A DNA stretch of 64,000 nt. It comes from Candidatus Saganbacteria bacterium. Its GTDB lineage: Bacteria; Margulisbacteria; WOR-1; O2-12-FULL-45-9. The number at the start of each line of letters is the position of its first letter. The stretch's first letter is position 1. Positions 26,119 to 29,770 of the stretch are shown in pieces. Made by a program: the position numbers and the translations under genes. Where the stretch lies: contig JAFGDE010000009.1 of the NCBI GenBank assembly GCA_016932255.1, positions 1-64,000 of the forward strand, written 5' to 3'. Below the pieces are notes generated by a model that was given only the letters and a program-made list of their open reading frames with translations, did no database searches and was not told where the DNA came from.

Positions 26119-26451
26119 ATGGATAATATCAGTTTTAGCGAGTTTCAAAAAATGGATATCCGGGTCGCTGAGATCAAGAGCGCTGAAATGATCGAAGGCG
26201 CGGATAAATTGTATAAGCTGACCATTGATCTGGGCGGAGAGGAGCGCACCCTGGTCGCAGGGATCAAACAATTCTATCCCCTTGAGGAACTGCCGGGCAA
26301 GAAAGTCCTGGTCCTGGCCAATCTCGAGCCCAGGATCATCAGAGGAGTGGAAAGCCGCGGCATGGTGCTCTGCGCCCATACTGATGACCGCAGCCAGCTA
26401 GTCTTCACTACCGTGGAAAAGGATATCAATTCCGGAGCAAAAGTATCTTAG
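26119..26451 (+). CDS. Stand-alone tRNA-binding (EMAP/MetRS-beta) domain protein
   Basis: 110 residues forming one OB-fold tRNA-binding domain: FQKMDIRVAEIKSAEMIEGADKLYKL, LVAGIKQFYPLEELPGKKV and NLEPRIIRGVESRGMVL. This domain is normally fused to the C-terminus of methionyl-tRNA synthetase or exists alone as a MetRS beta subunit or CsaA-like protein. It probably helps tRNA binding in trans; a CsaA-type chaperone role is the alternative. A strong AAGGAGG precedes it, and it is followed 8 bases later by the transaldolase-like gene. Confidence 0.88.
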   Translation: MDNISFSEFQKMDIRVAEIKSAEMIEGADKLYKLTIDLGGEERTLVAGIKQFYPLEELPGKKVLVLANLEPRIIRGVESRGMVLCAHTDDRSQLVFTTVEKDINSGAKVS

Positions 26452-26459
26452 GAGCGGGG

Positions 26460-27596
26460 ATGGCAAGGCTTAAAGAACTGCATAGATTCGGTCAGAGCCC
26501 CTGGCTGGACGGTGTTGAGCGTGATTTATTGCTTTCCGGCAGGCTTAAACAGCTGATCGATGAGGCCGGCATTACTGGTGTGGCGATCGAGCCTGCTGTG
26601 CTGGAAAAATCAGTCTCAAACAATAGTACCTATGACGCGGAGATAGAGCGCTTGGCCAAGCAGGGATTGGCCGCGCAGCAGATATATGAAGAACTGGCCG
26701 TTTGGGACGCGGTCAAGGCGGCCGATCTGCTGCTTGAAACATACCAGAGTAATGCTGGGCATGATGGTTTTGTCAGTATCGGGATCCGGCCGGATCTGGC
26801 CAATGATGCGGAACAGACCGTGGCAGAAGCAAAACGGCTTTATACCAAGATCGGCCGTGCCAATATAATGATCAAAGTGCCGGCGACCAGCGCCGGGATA
26901 GAGGCCACGCGCCGGCTGACAGAACTCGGCCTTAATGTCAATGTGACGCTGATCTTCTCTCAAGCCCAGTACACGGCCAGCGCTGAAGCTTATATCCGGG
27001 GCATCGAAGAGCGGCTGGAAAGAGGCGCGGTTGTTGACCGGATCAATTCAGCGGCCGGTTTTTTCATCAGTTTTATTGATTTATACATCGACAGGAATCT
27101 TAATGATCTTATGATCAGGGAATCGGATGAGACCAGGCGGCAGGAGCAGGAGCGCCTGCTCGGCCGGGCTGCGGTTGCCCAGGCCAAGGTCATTTATGCC
27201 CAATATAAGACGCTGTTCCATGCTCCTCAATTTCTCAGGCTCAGGGATAAAGGAGCAAATATACAGCGGATGATGTTGAGCAGTACCAGCACCAAGAATC
27301 CGGAGTATAGTGATGTTAAATATGTCGAAGAGTTGATCGGCAACGGCACGGTCAGCGTTATGTCCCAGAAGACAATGACGGCATTCAATGACCATGGCCG
27401 GGTCGCCGAAACGCTGAATCAGGATTTTAGTGAAGCTAAAAGGATCCTGGCCAGCCTGAAGGAATTTGGCATCTCAAGCGAGGATATCTGCCAGAGGGTG
27501 GGAGAAGCGGTATATGCTATCCAGGATGACGCGTTACAGGCCCTGATCGGATCCTATAATCGCACTGTTAGGTCGATCGATAAAAAGTGCCAGTAA
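26460..27596 (+). CDS. Transaldolase-family protein with altered active site
   Basis: 378 residues aligned end to end with the long actinobacterial/cyanobacterial transaldolases (SPWLDGVERD, IKVPATSAGIEATRRL, VNVTLIFSQAQY, STSTKNPEYSDVKYVEELI). The Schiff-base Lys139 and Asp17 are kept. The catalytic Asn of TTNPS is Glu44 (VAIEPAVLEKS), and the catalytic Glu of VSIEVDPRL is Gly108 (VSIGIRPDL). These residues act in proton transfer in TalB, so classical transaldolase activity is doubtful. It may be a different aldolase or a degenerate paralogue. The frame is intact. Confidence 0.8.
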   Translation: MARLKELHRFGQSPWLDGVERDLLLSGRLKQLIDEAGITGVAIEPAVLEKSVSNNSTYDAEIERLAKQGLAAQQIYEELAVWDAVKAADLLLETYQSNAGHDGFVSIGIRPDLANDAEQTVAEAKRLYTKIGRANIMIKVPATSAGIEATRRLTELGLNVNVTLIFSQAQYTASAEAYIRGIEERLERGAVVDRINSAAGFFISFIDLYIDRNLNDLMIRESDETRRQEQERLLGRAAVAQAKVIYAQYKTLFHAPQFLRLRDKGANIQRMMLSSTSTKNPEYSDVKYVEELIGNGTVSVMSQKTMTAFNDHGRVAETLNQDFSEAKRILASLKEFGISSEDICQRVGEAVYAIQDDALQALIGSYNRTVRSIDKKCQ

Positions 27597-27626: not shown

Positions 27627-28340
27627 CTATTTTTCTTTAGCCTCATAGACCACGGTTAGGGAGCCGCGAACTTCAACCTTGCCTAAAGATATCGGTGTTT
27701 CGCTGCGGCCTCCGCCCCGGCCATCAGCCGCAAAAGCGATCGACCGGTTGACCTGGGGCACGACCTGGGCGCCGGTTTCCCTGATCGATTTAATACCTAT
27801 GATGGTCAGTCCGGCGGCCGCGGCAATGATCTCAGCTTTACCTTTAGCCTCGGTAAAGGCCTGCTGCAGCGCGGCTTTTTTGACCGGCGCGTCTGACTTG
27901 AGGCCAAAAGTCACATGATTGATATTGGTGGCACCGGCGGAAATGGCCGTGTCGATCGTTTTGCCCAGTTCGGTCAGTTCGGTAACGGTCACATCGATCT
28001 CGTTGCGGGCCGTATAGCCGATCAGGTCGCGCTCACCGCGATCATACTTGTATTGCGGATAAAGGCTGGCCTGGGAAGTTTTTATCTCGTCCCGGTTCAG
28101 GCCGAGTTTTTCAAGGCTTGACAGGATAGCGCTCATCTTGGAGGCGACAGTTTGCTGGGCTTCGACCGCGGTCTTTTCAGTGCGCTCAACACCGATGGAA
28201 ATATGGGCGATGTCCGGCGGCACTTTGATCTCACCCTGGCCTGTGATGGTCAGGTCTGTTGCCTCGCCTTTCAGGGGCGCGGCCTGGCCCGATCCGGCCA
28301 GGAACAAGAGGCAGAGAAGGGCTGCAACTGTTTTTTGCAT
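27627..28340 (-). CDS. SIMPL-domain (DUF541) periplasmic protein
   Basis: 237 residues. A signal peptide (MQKTVAALLCLLFLAGSGQAA) leads into the SIMPL fold: TDLTITGQGEIKVPPDIAHI, IGVERTEKTAVEAQQTVASKM, FGLKSDAPVKKAALQQAFTEA and KVEVRGSLTVVYE. The frame is open 31 codons upstream, but ATG 28340 directly starts the signal peptide and has AAAGGAG at the right distance. SIMPL proteins are exported to the periplasm or outer surface. Their role is poorly defined. It is transcribed away from dnaB. Confidence 0.85.
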   Translation of the reverse strand: MQKTVAALLCLLFLAGSGQAAPLKGEATDLTITGQGEIKVPPDIAHISIGVERTEKTAVEAQQTVASKMSAILSSLEKLGLNRDEIKTSQASLYPQYKYDRGERDLIGYTARNEIDVTVTELTELGKTIDTAISAGATNINHVTFGLKSDAPVKKAALQQAFTEAKGKAEIIAAAAGLTIIGIKSIRETGAQVVPQVNRSIAFAADGRGGGRSETPISLGKVEVRGSLTVVYEAKEK

Positions 28341-28394
28341 GGCGTATAACTCCTTTATCCTTGATCTTAAGGGCAATTTTAACACAGCGCAACC

Positions 28395-28423
28395 TTGAAT
28401 CAAAGGCGCTGATAGGGTAGAAT
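28395..28423 (+). promoter_or_regulatory. Promoter of the dnaB operon
   Basis: TTGAAT (28395-28400), 17 bases, TAGAAT (28418-28423). The dnaB ATG is 9 bases after the -10 box and no Shine-Dalgarno is present, so the mRNA is likely leaderless or nearly so. Confidence 0.55.
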
Positions 28424-28432
28424 TATCATACA

Positions 28433-29770
28433 ATGGCTGAGGAACGCATTCCCCCCCAGGACCTGATAGCTGAACAATCCGTCATCGGTTCGATGCTGCT
28501 GGATAAGAACGCGATCGTCCGTGTGGTCGAATTGCTGACGCCGGAAAGCTTCTATCGCGATGCCCACCGTTTTATCTATGAGACCATCCTGGAACTTTTT
28601 GATAAGGGCGAGCCAATCGACCTGGTCACGGTCACCGATTGCCTGCGCAAGAACGGCAGGCTTGAGCTGGTTGGCGGTTCGGTCTATGTCGCTGACCTGT
28701 TGAACTCAGTGCCCACTTCAGCCAACGTTGATTATTACGCCAAGATCGTGGAAGAAAAGGCCGTGCTGCGGCGATTGATCGAAGCCGGCACGCAGATCGT
28801 AGCTGAGGCTTTTGAGGGCTCGGATGATGTTGATCAGGTGCTGGACCGGGCCGAGAAGTCGGTCTTTGATATCGCGCTTAAGCGGGTGCGCCAGGGTTTC
28901 TGCAAGATCGACACGGTCATTAAGAATGTGCTGGACAAGATCGACAGCCTCTATGATAAGAAGGATGCGCTGACCGGTGTGCCGACGGGATATCCTGATT
29001 TGGATAAAATGACCGCCGGTTTCCAGAACGCTGATCTGATCATTATCGCGGCGCGGCCGTCGGTCGGTAAGACCGCTTTTGCCCTGAACATCGCCCAGAA
29101 CGCGGCCATTAAATATAAACTGCCGGTGGCGGTCTTCTCCCTGGAAATGAGCAAGGACCAGTTGGCTCAGCGTATGCTCTGTTCCGAGGCGGAGGTTGAC
29201 GCTCAAAAGCTCAAGACAGCTTCGCTCTCTGACACAGGCTGGAAAAAATTGACCCGGGCCCTGGGCCGGTTGTCCGAAGCGCCTATCTTTATCGATGATA
29301 CTCCGGCGATGACCGCGACAGAAGTCAGGGCTAAAGCCAGACGCTTGAAGATCGAACGCGGCCTGGGCCTGATAATAATAGATTATATGCAATTAATGCG
29401 GGGCCGCGCCCGTGTTGAGAACCGCGTCCAGGAGATATCTGAGATTGCCCGTTCGCTTAAGACCTTGGCCAGGGAGCTCGATGTCCCTGTCGTTGCCCTG
29501 TCGCAGCTGTCGCGTGCTGTTGAGCAGCGCACCGATCGTATTCCGCGCCTGTCTGACCTGCGTGAATCGGGAGAGATCGAGCAGACCGCCGACCTGGTCA
29601 TGTTCATCCATCGCGAGGATTATTATAATCCACAGTCCGACCGCGGCAACATCGCTGAGATTATTATTGCCAAACAGCGAAACGGTCCGGTCGGCACGAT
29701 TGAACTGGTCTTTCGTAAGGAGATCGCCAAGTTCAACAGCAAAGAAAGCAGGTACGAGCAAGTTGCCTAG
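28433..29770 (+). CDS. dnaB: Replicative DNA helicase
   Basis: 445 residues. DnaB is the hexameric fork helicase. The N-terminal domain (AEQSVIGSMLLDKNAI) is followed by a RecA-type ATPase with Walker A ARPSVGKTAF (GKT at 212-214), Walker B LIIIDYMQL, the loop [21 protein letters not shown], and the arginine-finger region SDLRESGEIEQTADLV. No intein is present. It overlaps the LptD-like gene by 8 bases. Confidence 0.98.
   Translation: MAEERIPPQDLIAEQSVIGSMLLDKNAIVRVVELLTPESFYRDAHRFIYETILELFDKGEPIDLVTVTDCLRKNGRLELVGGSVYVADLLNSVPTSANVDYYAKIVEEKAVLRRLIEAGTQIVAEAFEGSDDVDQVLDRAEKSVFDIALKRVRQGFCKIDTVIKNVLDKIDSLYDKKDALTGVPTGYPDLDKMTAGFQNADLIIIAARPSVGKTAFALNIAQNAAIKYKLPVAVFSLEMSKDQLAQRMLCSEAEVDAQKLKTASLSDTGWKKLTRALGRLSEAPIFIDDTPAMTATEVRAKARRLKIERGLGLIIIDYMQLMRGRARVENRVQEISEIARSLKTLARELDVPVVALSQLSRAVEQRTDRIPRLSDLRESGEIEQTADLVMFIHREDYYNPQSDRGNIAEIIIAKQRNGPVGTIELVFRKEIAKFNSKESRYEQVA

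Follow-up and report, generated by a model that had tools for sequence, protein, structure and literature searches.

Can a transaldolase homologue that has lost its catalytic asparagine and glutamate still be an enzyme, and if so, of what kind? The question is raised by an open reading frame in a stretch of 64,000 nucleotides (the window) from a Candidatus Saganbacteria genome. An initial annotation had pointed out both losses and suggested that a new aldolase-type activity is possible. We refer to the gene product as altered Tal.

Identity of the protein

The reading frame was confirmed in the window:

26460..27596, forward strand: altered long-form transaldolase homologue of 378 aa (PF00923, NF002881 and TIGR00876 profile scores, model pLDDT, structural superposition)

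Altered Tal scores above the curated cut-offs of NF002881 (390.3 against 367 bits), TIGR00876 (246.3 against 233.75 bits) and PF00923 (200.6 against 27 bits). Its AlphaFold2 model has a mean pLDDT of 94.2 and superposes on the Neisseria transaldolase 7oey_A with a Z-score of 53.7 and an rmsd of 1.1 Å over 350 residues; Z-scores are 53.4 for 3clm (Neisseria gonorrhoeae) and 52.9 for 3r5e (Corynebacterium). Profiles and superposition support the earlier claim of transaldolase homology along the whole length, and the model confidently predicts a transaldolase (beta/alpha)8 barrel over the full protein. Among the matches listed by Foldseek and VIA-align for the model, no protein other than a transaldolase scored better.

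The score stays below the cut-off of TIGR00875 (fructose-6-phosphate aldolase/TalC, the short form; 42.6 against 245.95 bits) and of NF007080 (bifunctional transaldolase/phosphoglucose isomerase; 406.9 against 712 bits, covering positions 3 to 367 of 949). A bifunctional Tal-Pgi is ruled out: altered Tal ends at 378 aa without the C-terminal phosphoglucose isomerase domain. A single scan of the contig collection genome_contigs yielded one relative, a canonical Tal-Pgi-like fusion.

The genome (1,668,633 bases, 89.86% complete) is a draft of 31 contigs, and unusual residues in a draft could be due to an assembly or sequencing artefact. However, the contig carrying tal counts 132,873 bases, the frame is intact, and many codons differ by two or three base changes from those in G003, a genome of the same GTDB family. 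We regard an artefact as extremely improbable.

Active-site substitutions

Alignments to solved long-form transaldolases are gapless round both motifs, where TSNP reads AIEP and VSLEVSP reads VSIGIRP in altered Tal. The Neisseria (3clm) and Corynebacterium (3r5e) enzymes keep both the TSNP Asn and the catalytic Glu. The positions concerned are given below, with counts among homologues.

26508..26510, forward strand: codon of the catalytic Asp17, kept (Asp in 61/61)
26583..26591, forward strand: codons of Ala42-Ile43-Glu44, replacing Thr-Ser-Asn (Thr42 and Asn44 in 61/61)
26781..26789, forward strand: codons of Gly108-Ile109-Arg110, replacing Glu-Val-Ser (Glu108 in 61/61; position 110 variable, never Arg)
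26874..26876, forward strand: codon of the Schiff-base Lys139, kept (Lys in 61/61)
27057..27059, forward strand: codon of Gly200, replacing the Ser that binds the donor (aligned with TalB Ser176; Ser in 61/61)
27072..27074, forward strand: codon of Phe205, replacing the Arg that binds phosphate (aligned with TalB Arg181; Arg in 61/61)
27498..27518, forward strand: insertion of about 7 codons, in frame, interrupting the helix at the C terminus (from the alignment, on which its exact edges depend)

Counts refer to 61 distinct other long-form proteins; the epimerase locus L071 and the short forms L030-L035 had been set aside beforehand. Two of the rows are gapped towards their ends, one after roughly position 272 and the other after roughly 358. 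Thr42, Asn44, Glu108, Val198, Ser200 and Arg205 each occur in all 61 and are all changed in altered Tal; Asp17, Lys139, Asn161 and Thr163 also occur in all 61 and are kept in altered Tal too. The initial annotation was right about the lost Asn and Glu and the retained Lys139 and Asp17, and it understated the case: the replacement of Ser by Gly200, Arg by Phe205, Thr by Ala42, Thr by Val300 and Pro by Ser302 had been missed. In the motifs concerned, VASFFVSRID reads AAGFFISFID (with Gly200 and Phe205), and INTMP reads VSVMS. On a minor point it was mistaken, namely that Arg110 stands in place of Asp: most of the 61 homologues have Ser at this position (41), the others including Asn (8), Pro (7) and Asp (5), and Arg110, though unusual, does not mark a lost Asp.

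Misalignment was rejected as the source of the losses. Since the model superposes on the Neisseria enzyme so closely and over such a length (1.1 Å, 350 residues), the loss of Asn and Glu is real and no alignment slip. The extent of the change becomes apparent from the 41 columns that are invariant among 24 homologues. Altered Tal changes 13 of them (T42A, N44E, I47V, F48L, E108G, V198A, S200G, R205F, L272M, T300V, P302S, G358A and F362L), against 0 to 3 for each of the 24 other rows in a leave-one-out count. At the C terminus, the control model has one continuous helix (341-375); in altered Tal it is split into 340-345 and 353-377, with pLDDT below 50 at 349-351.

A subfamily sharing the substitutions was also looked for and rejected: none of the 61 other long-form proteins has them, even within the same GTDB family. 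The substitutions thus represent a change of one lineage and not a new subfamily.

Because the TIGR00876/NCBIfam equivalog cut-off is passed, automatic annotation would give altered Tal an activity that is probably absent. With four catalytic or binding residues lost, its passing TIGR00876 is a case of profile-based over-annotation.

Gene neighbourhood and evolutionary rate

Three features flank the reading frame:

26119..26451, forward strand: csaA-like tRNA-binding-domain gene, 8 bp upstream of tal (PF01588, 99 bits; same neighbour in G002, G003 and G008)
26450..26459, forward strand: AGGAG resembling a Shine-Dalgarno sequence, with spacer; overlaps the stop codon of csaA (read from the sequence)
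27627..28433, reverse strand: SIMPL (DUF541) gene, convergent with tal (PF04402, 173.1 bits; same place in G003 and G008)

This arrangement suggests that translation of csaA and tal may be coupled. The order uvrA-csaA-tal-SIMPL-dnaB recurs in G008 and, in part, in G003 and G002; these three genomes belong to the same GTDB family as the present one. The syntenic transaldolases of these three genomes are 50-54% identical to altered Tal and carry the full canonical site; by gene order, altered Tal is the orthologue of these intact enzymes. As a side observation, positions 1112-2551 of the window (reverse strand) encode a YcaO-domain protein (PF02624, 212.3 bits).

In the tree, altered Tal is sister to the G003 protein (99/96), and its end branch measures 0.89, against 0.34 for G003, 0.29 for G008 and 0.37 for G002. 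Relative-rate tests with G029 as outgroup gave unique changes of 62 v 32, 79 v 27 and 81 v 28 (p 0.003, 4e-7 and 4e-7). All six tests with G008 and G002 as outgroups were significant, and none of the three with G003 (p 0.05-0.86). For uvrA, csaA, dnaB and SIMPL, p was above 0.1 in 11 of the 12 tests, the exception being uvrA against G002 with outgroup G003 (p 0.005). The acceleration thus concerns mainly this gene in this lineage. In the csaA and dnaB trees G000 joins G007, which lacks tal (87/80).

Selection or decay

Accelerated change might simply mean that transaldolase has become unneeded and that its copy is decaying. Such a gene on its way out would fit with tal alone evolving faster, and with the situation in two other members of the family, G004 and G007, where csaA, SIMPL and dnaB are neighbours but tal is missing between them. 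It would also fit with invariant columns (13/41) having changed about as often as variable ones (10/29), which makes the catalytic constraint look lifted while the fold constraint is kept. The conservation bins as a whole (13/41, 5/39, 9/44, 10/29 and 0/1) cannot by themselves tell relaxation from a shift.

The nature of the changes, however, argues against decay. Four relatives agree on 63 hydrophobic positions. Altered Tal departs from them at 14 and has a non-hydrophobic residue at only one of the 14, against 49% of such changes in a neutral simulation. The mean BLOSUM62 score of the 38 changes is 0.55, compared to -0.53 (s.d. 0.26) when simulated. Neutral mutation (point mutations only, with G003 or G008 as stand-in for the ancestor) was also run until 13 of the 41 invariant columns had changed. 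On average, this should bring 4.0-7.1 stops and 9.3-10.2 non-hydrophobic changes, whereas 0 and 1 are observed. Over 12 settings of 400 runs each, 0-2% of the runs had no stop and 0-0.5% had so few non-hydrophobic changes. The G+C contents at the three codon positions of tal (0.573/0.391/0.599) are similar to those of the neighbouring genes. Simple neutral decay is ruled out by the open frame without stops and the single non-hydrophobic change, and we consider a gene on its way out quite unlikely. The earlier impression that frame and fold are under selection holds, given the open frame, the conservative hydrophobic changes and the confident model. The hydrophobic constraint seems somewhat looser than in relatives: in columns that are hydrophobic in all 24 others, altered Tal has 3 of 59 non-hydrophobic residues, against 0-1 of 56-57 in seven other rows listed.

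Transaldolase elsewhere in the genome and class

A second, normal tal gene had been proposed as something to look for. None was found by a PF00923 search of the genome, although at 89.86% completeness one may be missing. The search gave two matches, altered tal and the following:

L005:1111-2133 (= L054:9755-10777), reverse strand, contig C14: short transaldolase/fructose-6-phosphate aldolase form fused to CBS domains (PF00923)

Aligned to the B. subtilis transaldolase, the CBS fusion keeps the Lys, Glu and Arg. Its TTNP motif reads TTTP, the Thr of NVTL is replaced by His, and Cys and Leu stand for the Ser and Phe of SPF. It lies among genes that, judged from their sequences, resemble those for KDO-type (surface-sugar) synthesis, so that it is no obvious housekeeping replacement for transaldolase. 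The standard site is absent from both PF00923 proteins found in this genome.

PF00923 occurs in 6 of the 30 genomes of the class that were searched (24 have none), and a transketolase N-domain match in 28 of the same 30. Together with the tal-less G004 and G007, this makes transaldolase look dispensable in this lineage. According to PMC7029132, the pentose pathway can run through sedoheptulose bisphosphate when transaldolase is absent, as was shown in cellulolytic clostridia.

Two other loci deserve mention. In G019, a divergent PF00923 protein of 372 aa (L053:4424-5542; TIGR00875 62.5 bits, cut-off 245.95) is located upstream of phosphoglycerate kinase-, triosephosphate isomerase- and class II aldolase-like genes. 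In G029 (L052:9188-11012), an intact long-form tal overlaps a ribulose-phosphate-epimerase-like gene by 8 bp; this setting is a pentose-pathway operon, unlike the csaA setting in the family of altered Tal.

Possible function

The TalB residues that we take to be equivalent to Gln59, Thr109 and Tyr131 of fructose-6-phosphate aldolase are Glu96, Thr156 and Phe178, and TalB Arg181 presumably corresponds, by the same spacing, to Arg134 of that enzyme. The three former positions hold Gly108, Thr163 and Phe202 in altered Tal. In fructose-6-phosphate aldolase they hold the catalytic water (PMC13259622). One of the two polar ligands of the transaldolase water site is thus left, namely Thr163. TalB Arg181 binds phosphate; in the donor pocket, the counterpart of TalB Ser176 is Ala129 of fructose-6-phosphate aldolase (PMC3962226). 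With ligands of water, donor and phosphate lost, ordinary transaldolase turnover by altered Tal is unlikely. Judging from its sequence, altered Tal is most likely no longer a transaldolase, and we think it quite probable that it is both kept by selection and not a transaldolase.

A weak transaldolase might nevertheless persist if the catalytic Glu and Arg had moved to neighbouring strands, Glu44 serving for Glu108 and Arg110 for Arg205. The pocket does keep its charge inventory, a Glu and an Arg having been lost and one of each gained; in addition, the curated transaldolase cut-offs are passed, and the genome also has genes for a transketolase (N-domain) and for ribulose-phosphate epimerase. 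Yet the donor Ser is lost too, the Asn itself is consumed by the new Glu, and most class members manage without any transaldolase. This makes residual transaldolase activity very unlikely.

Our preferred reading, which we put forward tentatively, is that selection maintains altered Tal as a Schiff-base enzyme with altered chemistry, which no longer acts as a transaldolase. In this view one genome has rebuilt, for another job, a transaldolase that the family inherited vertically. The predicted barrel is retained, as are the Schiff-base Lys139, Asp17, Asn161 and Thr163; the Glu holding the catalytic water, the Asn and Ser holding the ketose donor and the Arg holding the phosphate are lost. The new Glu44 and Arg110 appear where the adjacent strands 2 and 3 end. 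A Schiff base might still be formed, with Glu44 as a possible new acid/base; the donor could be less polar and its partner hydrophobic or without phosphate, chemistry and substrates both being guesses. It seems rather unlikely that altered Tal would be a natural class I aldolase in a single lineage, with its carboxylate moved from strand 3 (Glu108) to strand 2 (Glu44), its anion-binding Arg moved from helix 6 (Arg205) to strand 3 (Arg110), and another, probably non-phosphorylated, substrate.

The new aldolase activity suggested at the outset is thus possible, because Lys139, Asp17, Asn161 and Thr163 remain, but unproven, and a non-catalytic role would fit the sequence nearly as well. If 13 of the 41 invariant columns had changed at random, these four residues would all be retained by luck with a probability of about 0.20 (hand arithmetic), which makes their retention weak evidence for catalysis and not significant by itself. 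Most of the other changes (T42A, S43I, E108G, S200G and T300V) look like a plain loss of polar groups, which speaks against the Schiff-base reading. The barrel might instead serve, without any catalysis, in binding or as a structural component, with the CsaA-like protein or a sugar phosphate as possible partners. Five classical catalytic or binding residues are lost while hydrophobic core and frame are kept, tal follows csaA closely (8 bp apart, its ribosome site overlapping the csaA stop), and transaldolase looks dispensable in the class. A mere scaffold, however, would not need the gained pocket charges Glu44 and Arg110, nor does it account for Lys139, Asp17, Asn161 and Thr163 all being kept. 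A pseudoenzyme of this kind appears somewhat doubtful, though far from remote.

Overall, altered Tal is probably still useful to the cell, for another job. The locus amounts to a natural experiment, in which one orthologue swaps its catalytic set within a conserved neighbourhood. Because close relatives keep theirs, proteins from before and after the change can be compared directly, and with the intact orthologues as ready control altered Tal is worth an assay. If catalytic, it would show natural re-tooling of the transaldolase barrel along lines that protein engineers have tried.

Comparison with known systems

Among the papers listed by searches of the open-licence PMC literature, we found no described transaldolase pseudoenzyme, catalytically inactive paralogue or neofunctionalization in this family. 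Altered Tal is best described, from its sequence, as a lineage-specific variant within a known family. It resembles the long-form transaldolases of Corynebacterium glutamicum (3r5e; subfamily III according to PMC7092467) and Neisseria gonorrhoeae (3clm) in whole length, fold, Lys, Asp, Asn161 and Thr163, but differs in Glu44, Gly108, Gly200, Phe205 and the 7-residue C-terminal insertion. With the syntenic transaldolases of G002, G003 and G008 it shares gene order and about half of its residues, whereas the canonical site is kept only in those.

A further parallel is the loss of activity in Bacillus methanolicus MGA3, where a transaldolase was likewise inactivated in one lineage in which it is dispensable (PMC7092467), although for altered Tal the loss is inferred. 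In MGA3 a truncation removes the Asp (same source), whereas altered Tal carries point changes on an intact predicted fold. The engineered fructose-6-phosphate aldolase 8s7i (L107C/A129G/R134V/L163C/S166G) has Gly in the place of the donor Ser and a hydrophobic residue in that of the phosphate Arg, matching Gly200 and Phe205 of altered Tal by position; this parallel counts in favour of the Schiff-base reading. It differs in being short, decameric and man-made, and in keeping Asn28, Gln59 and Tyr131 (PMC13259622).
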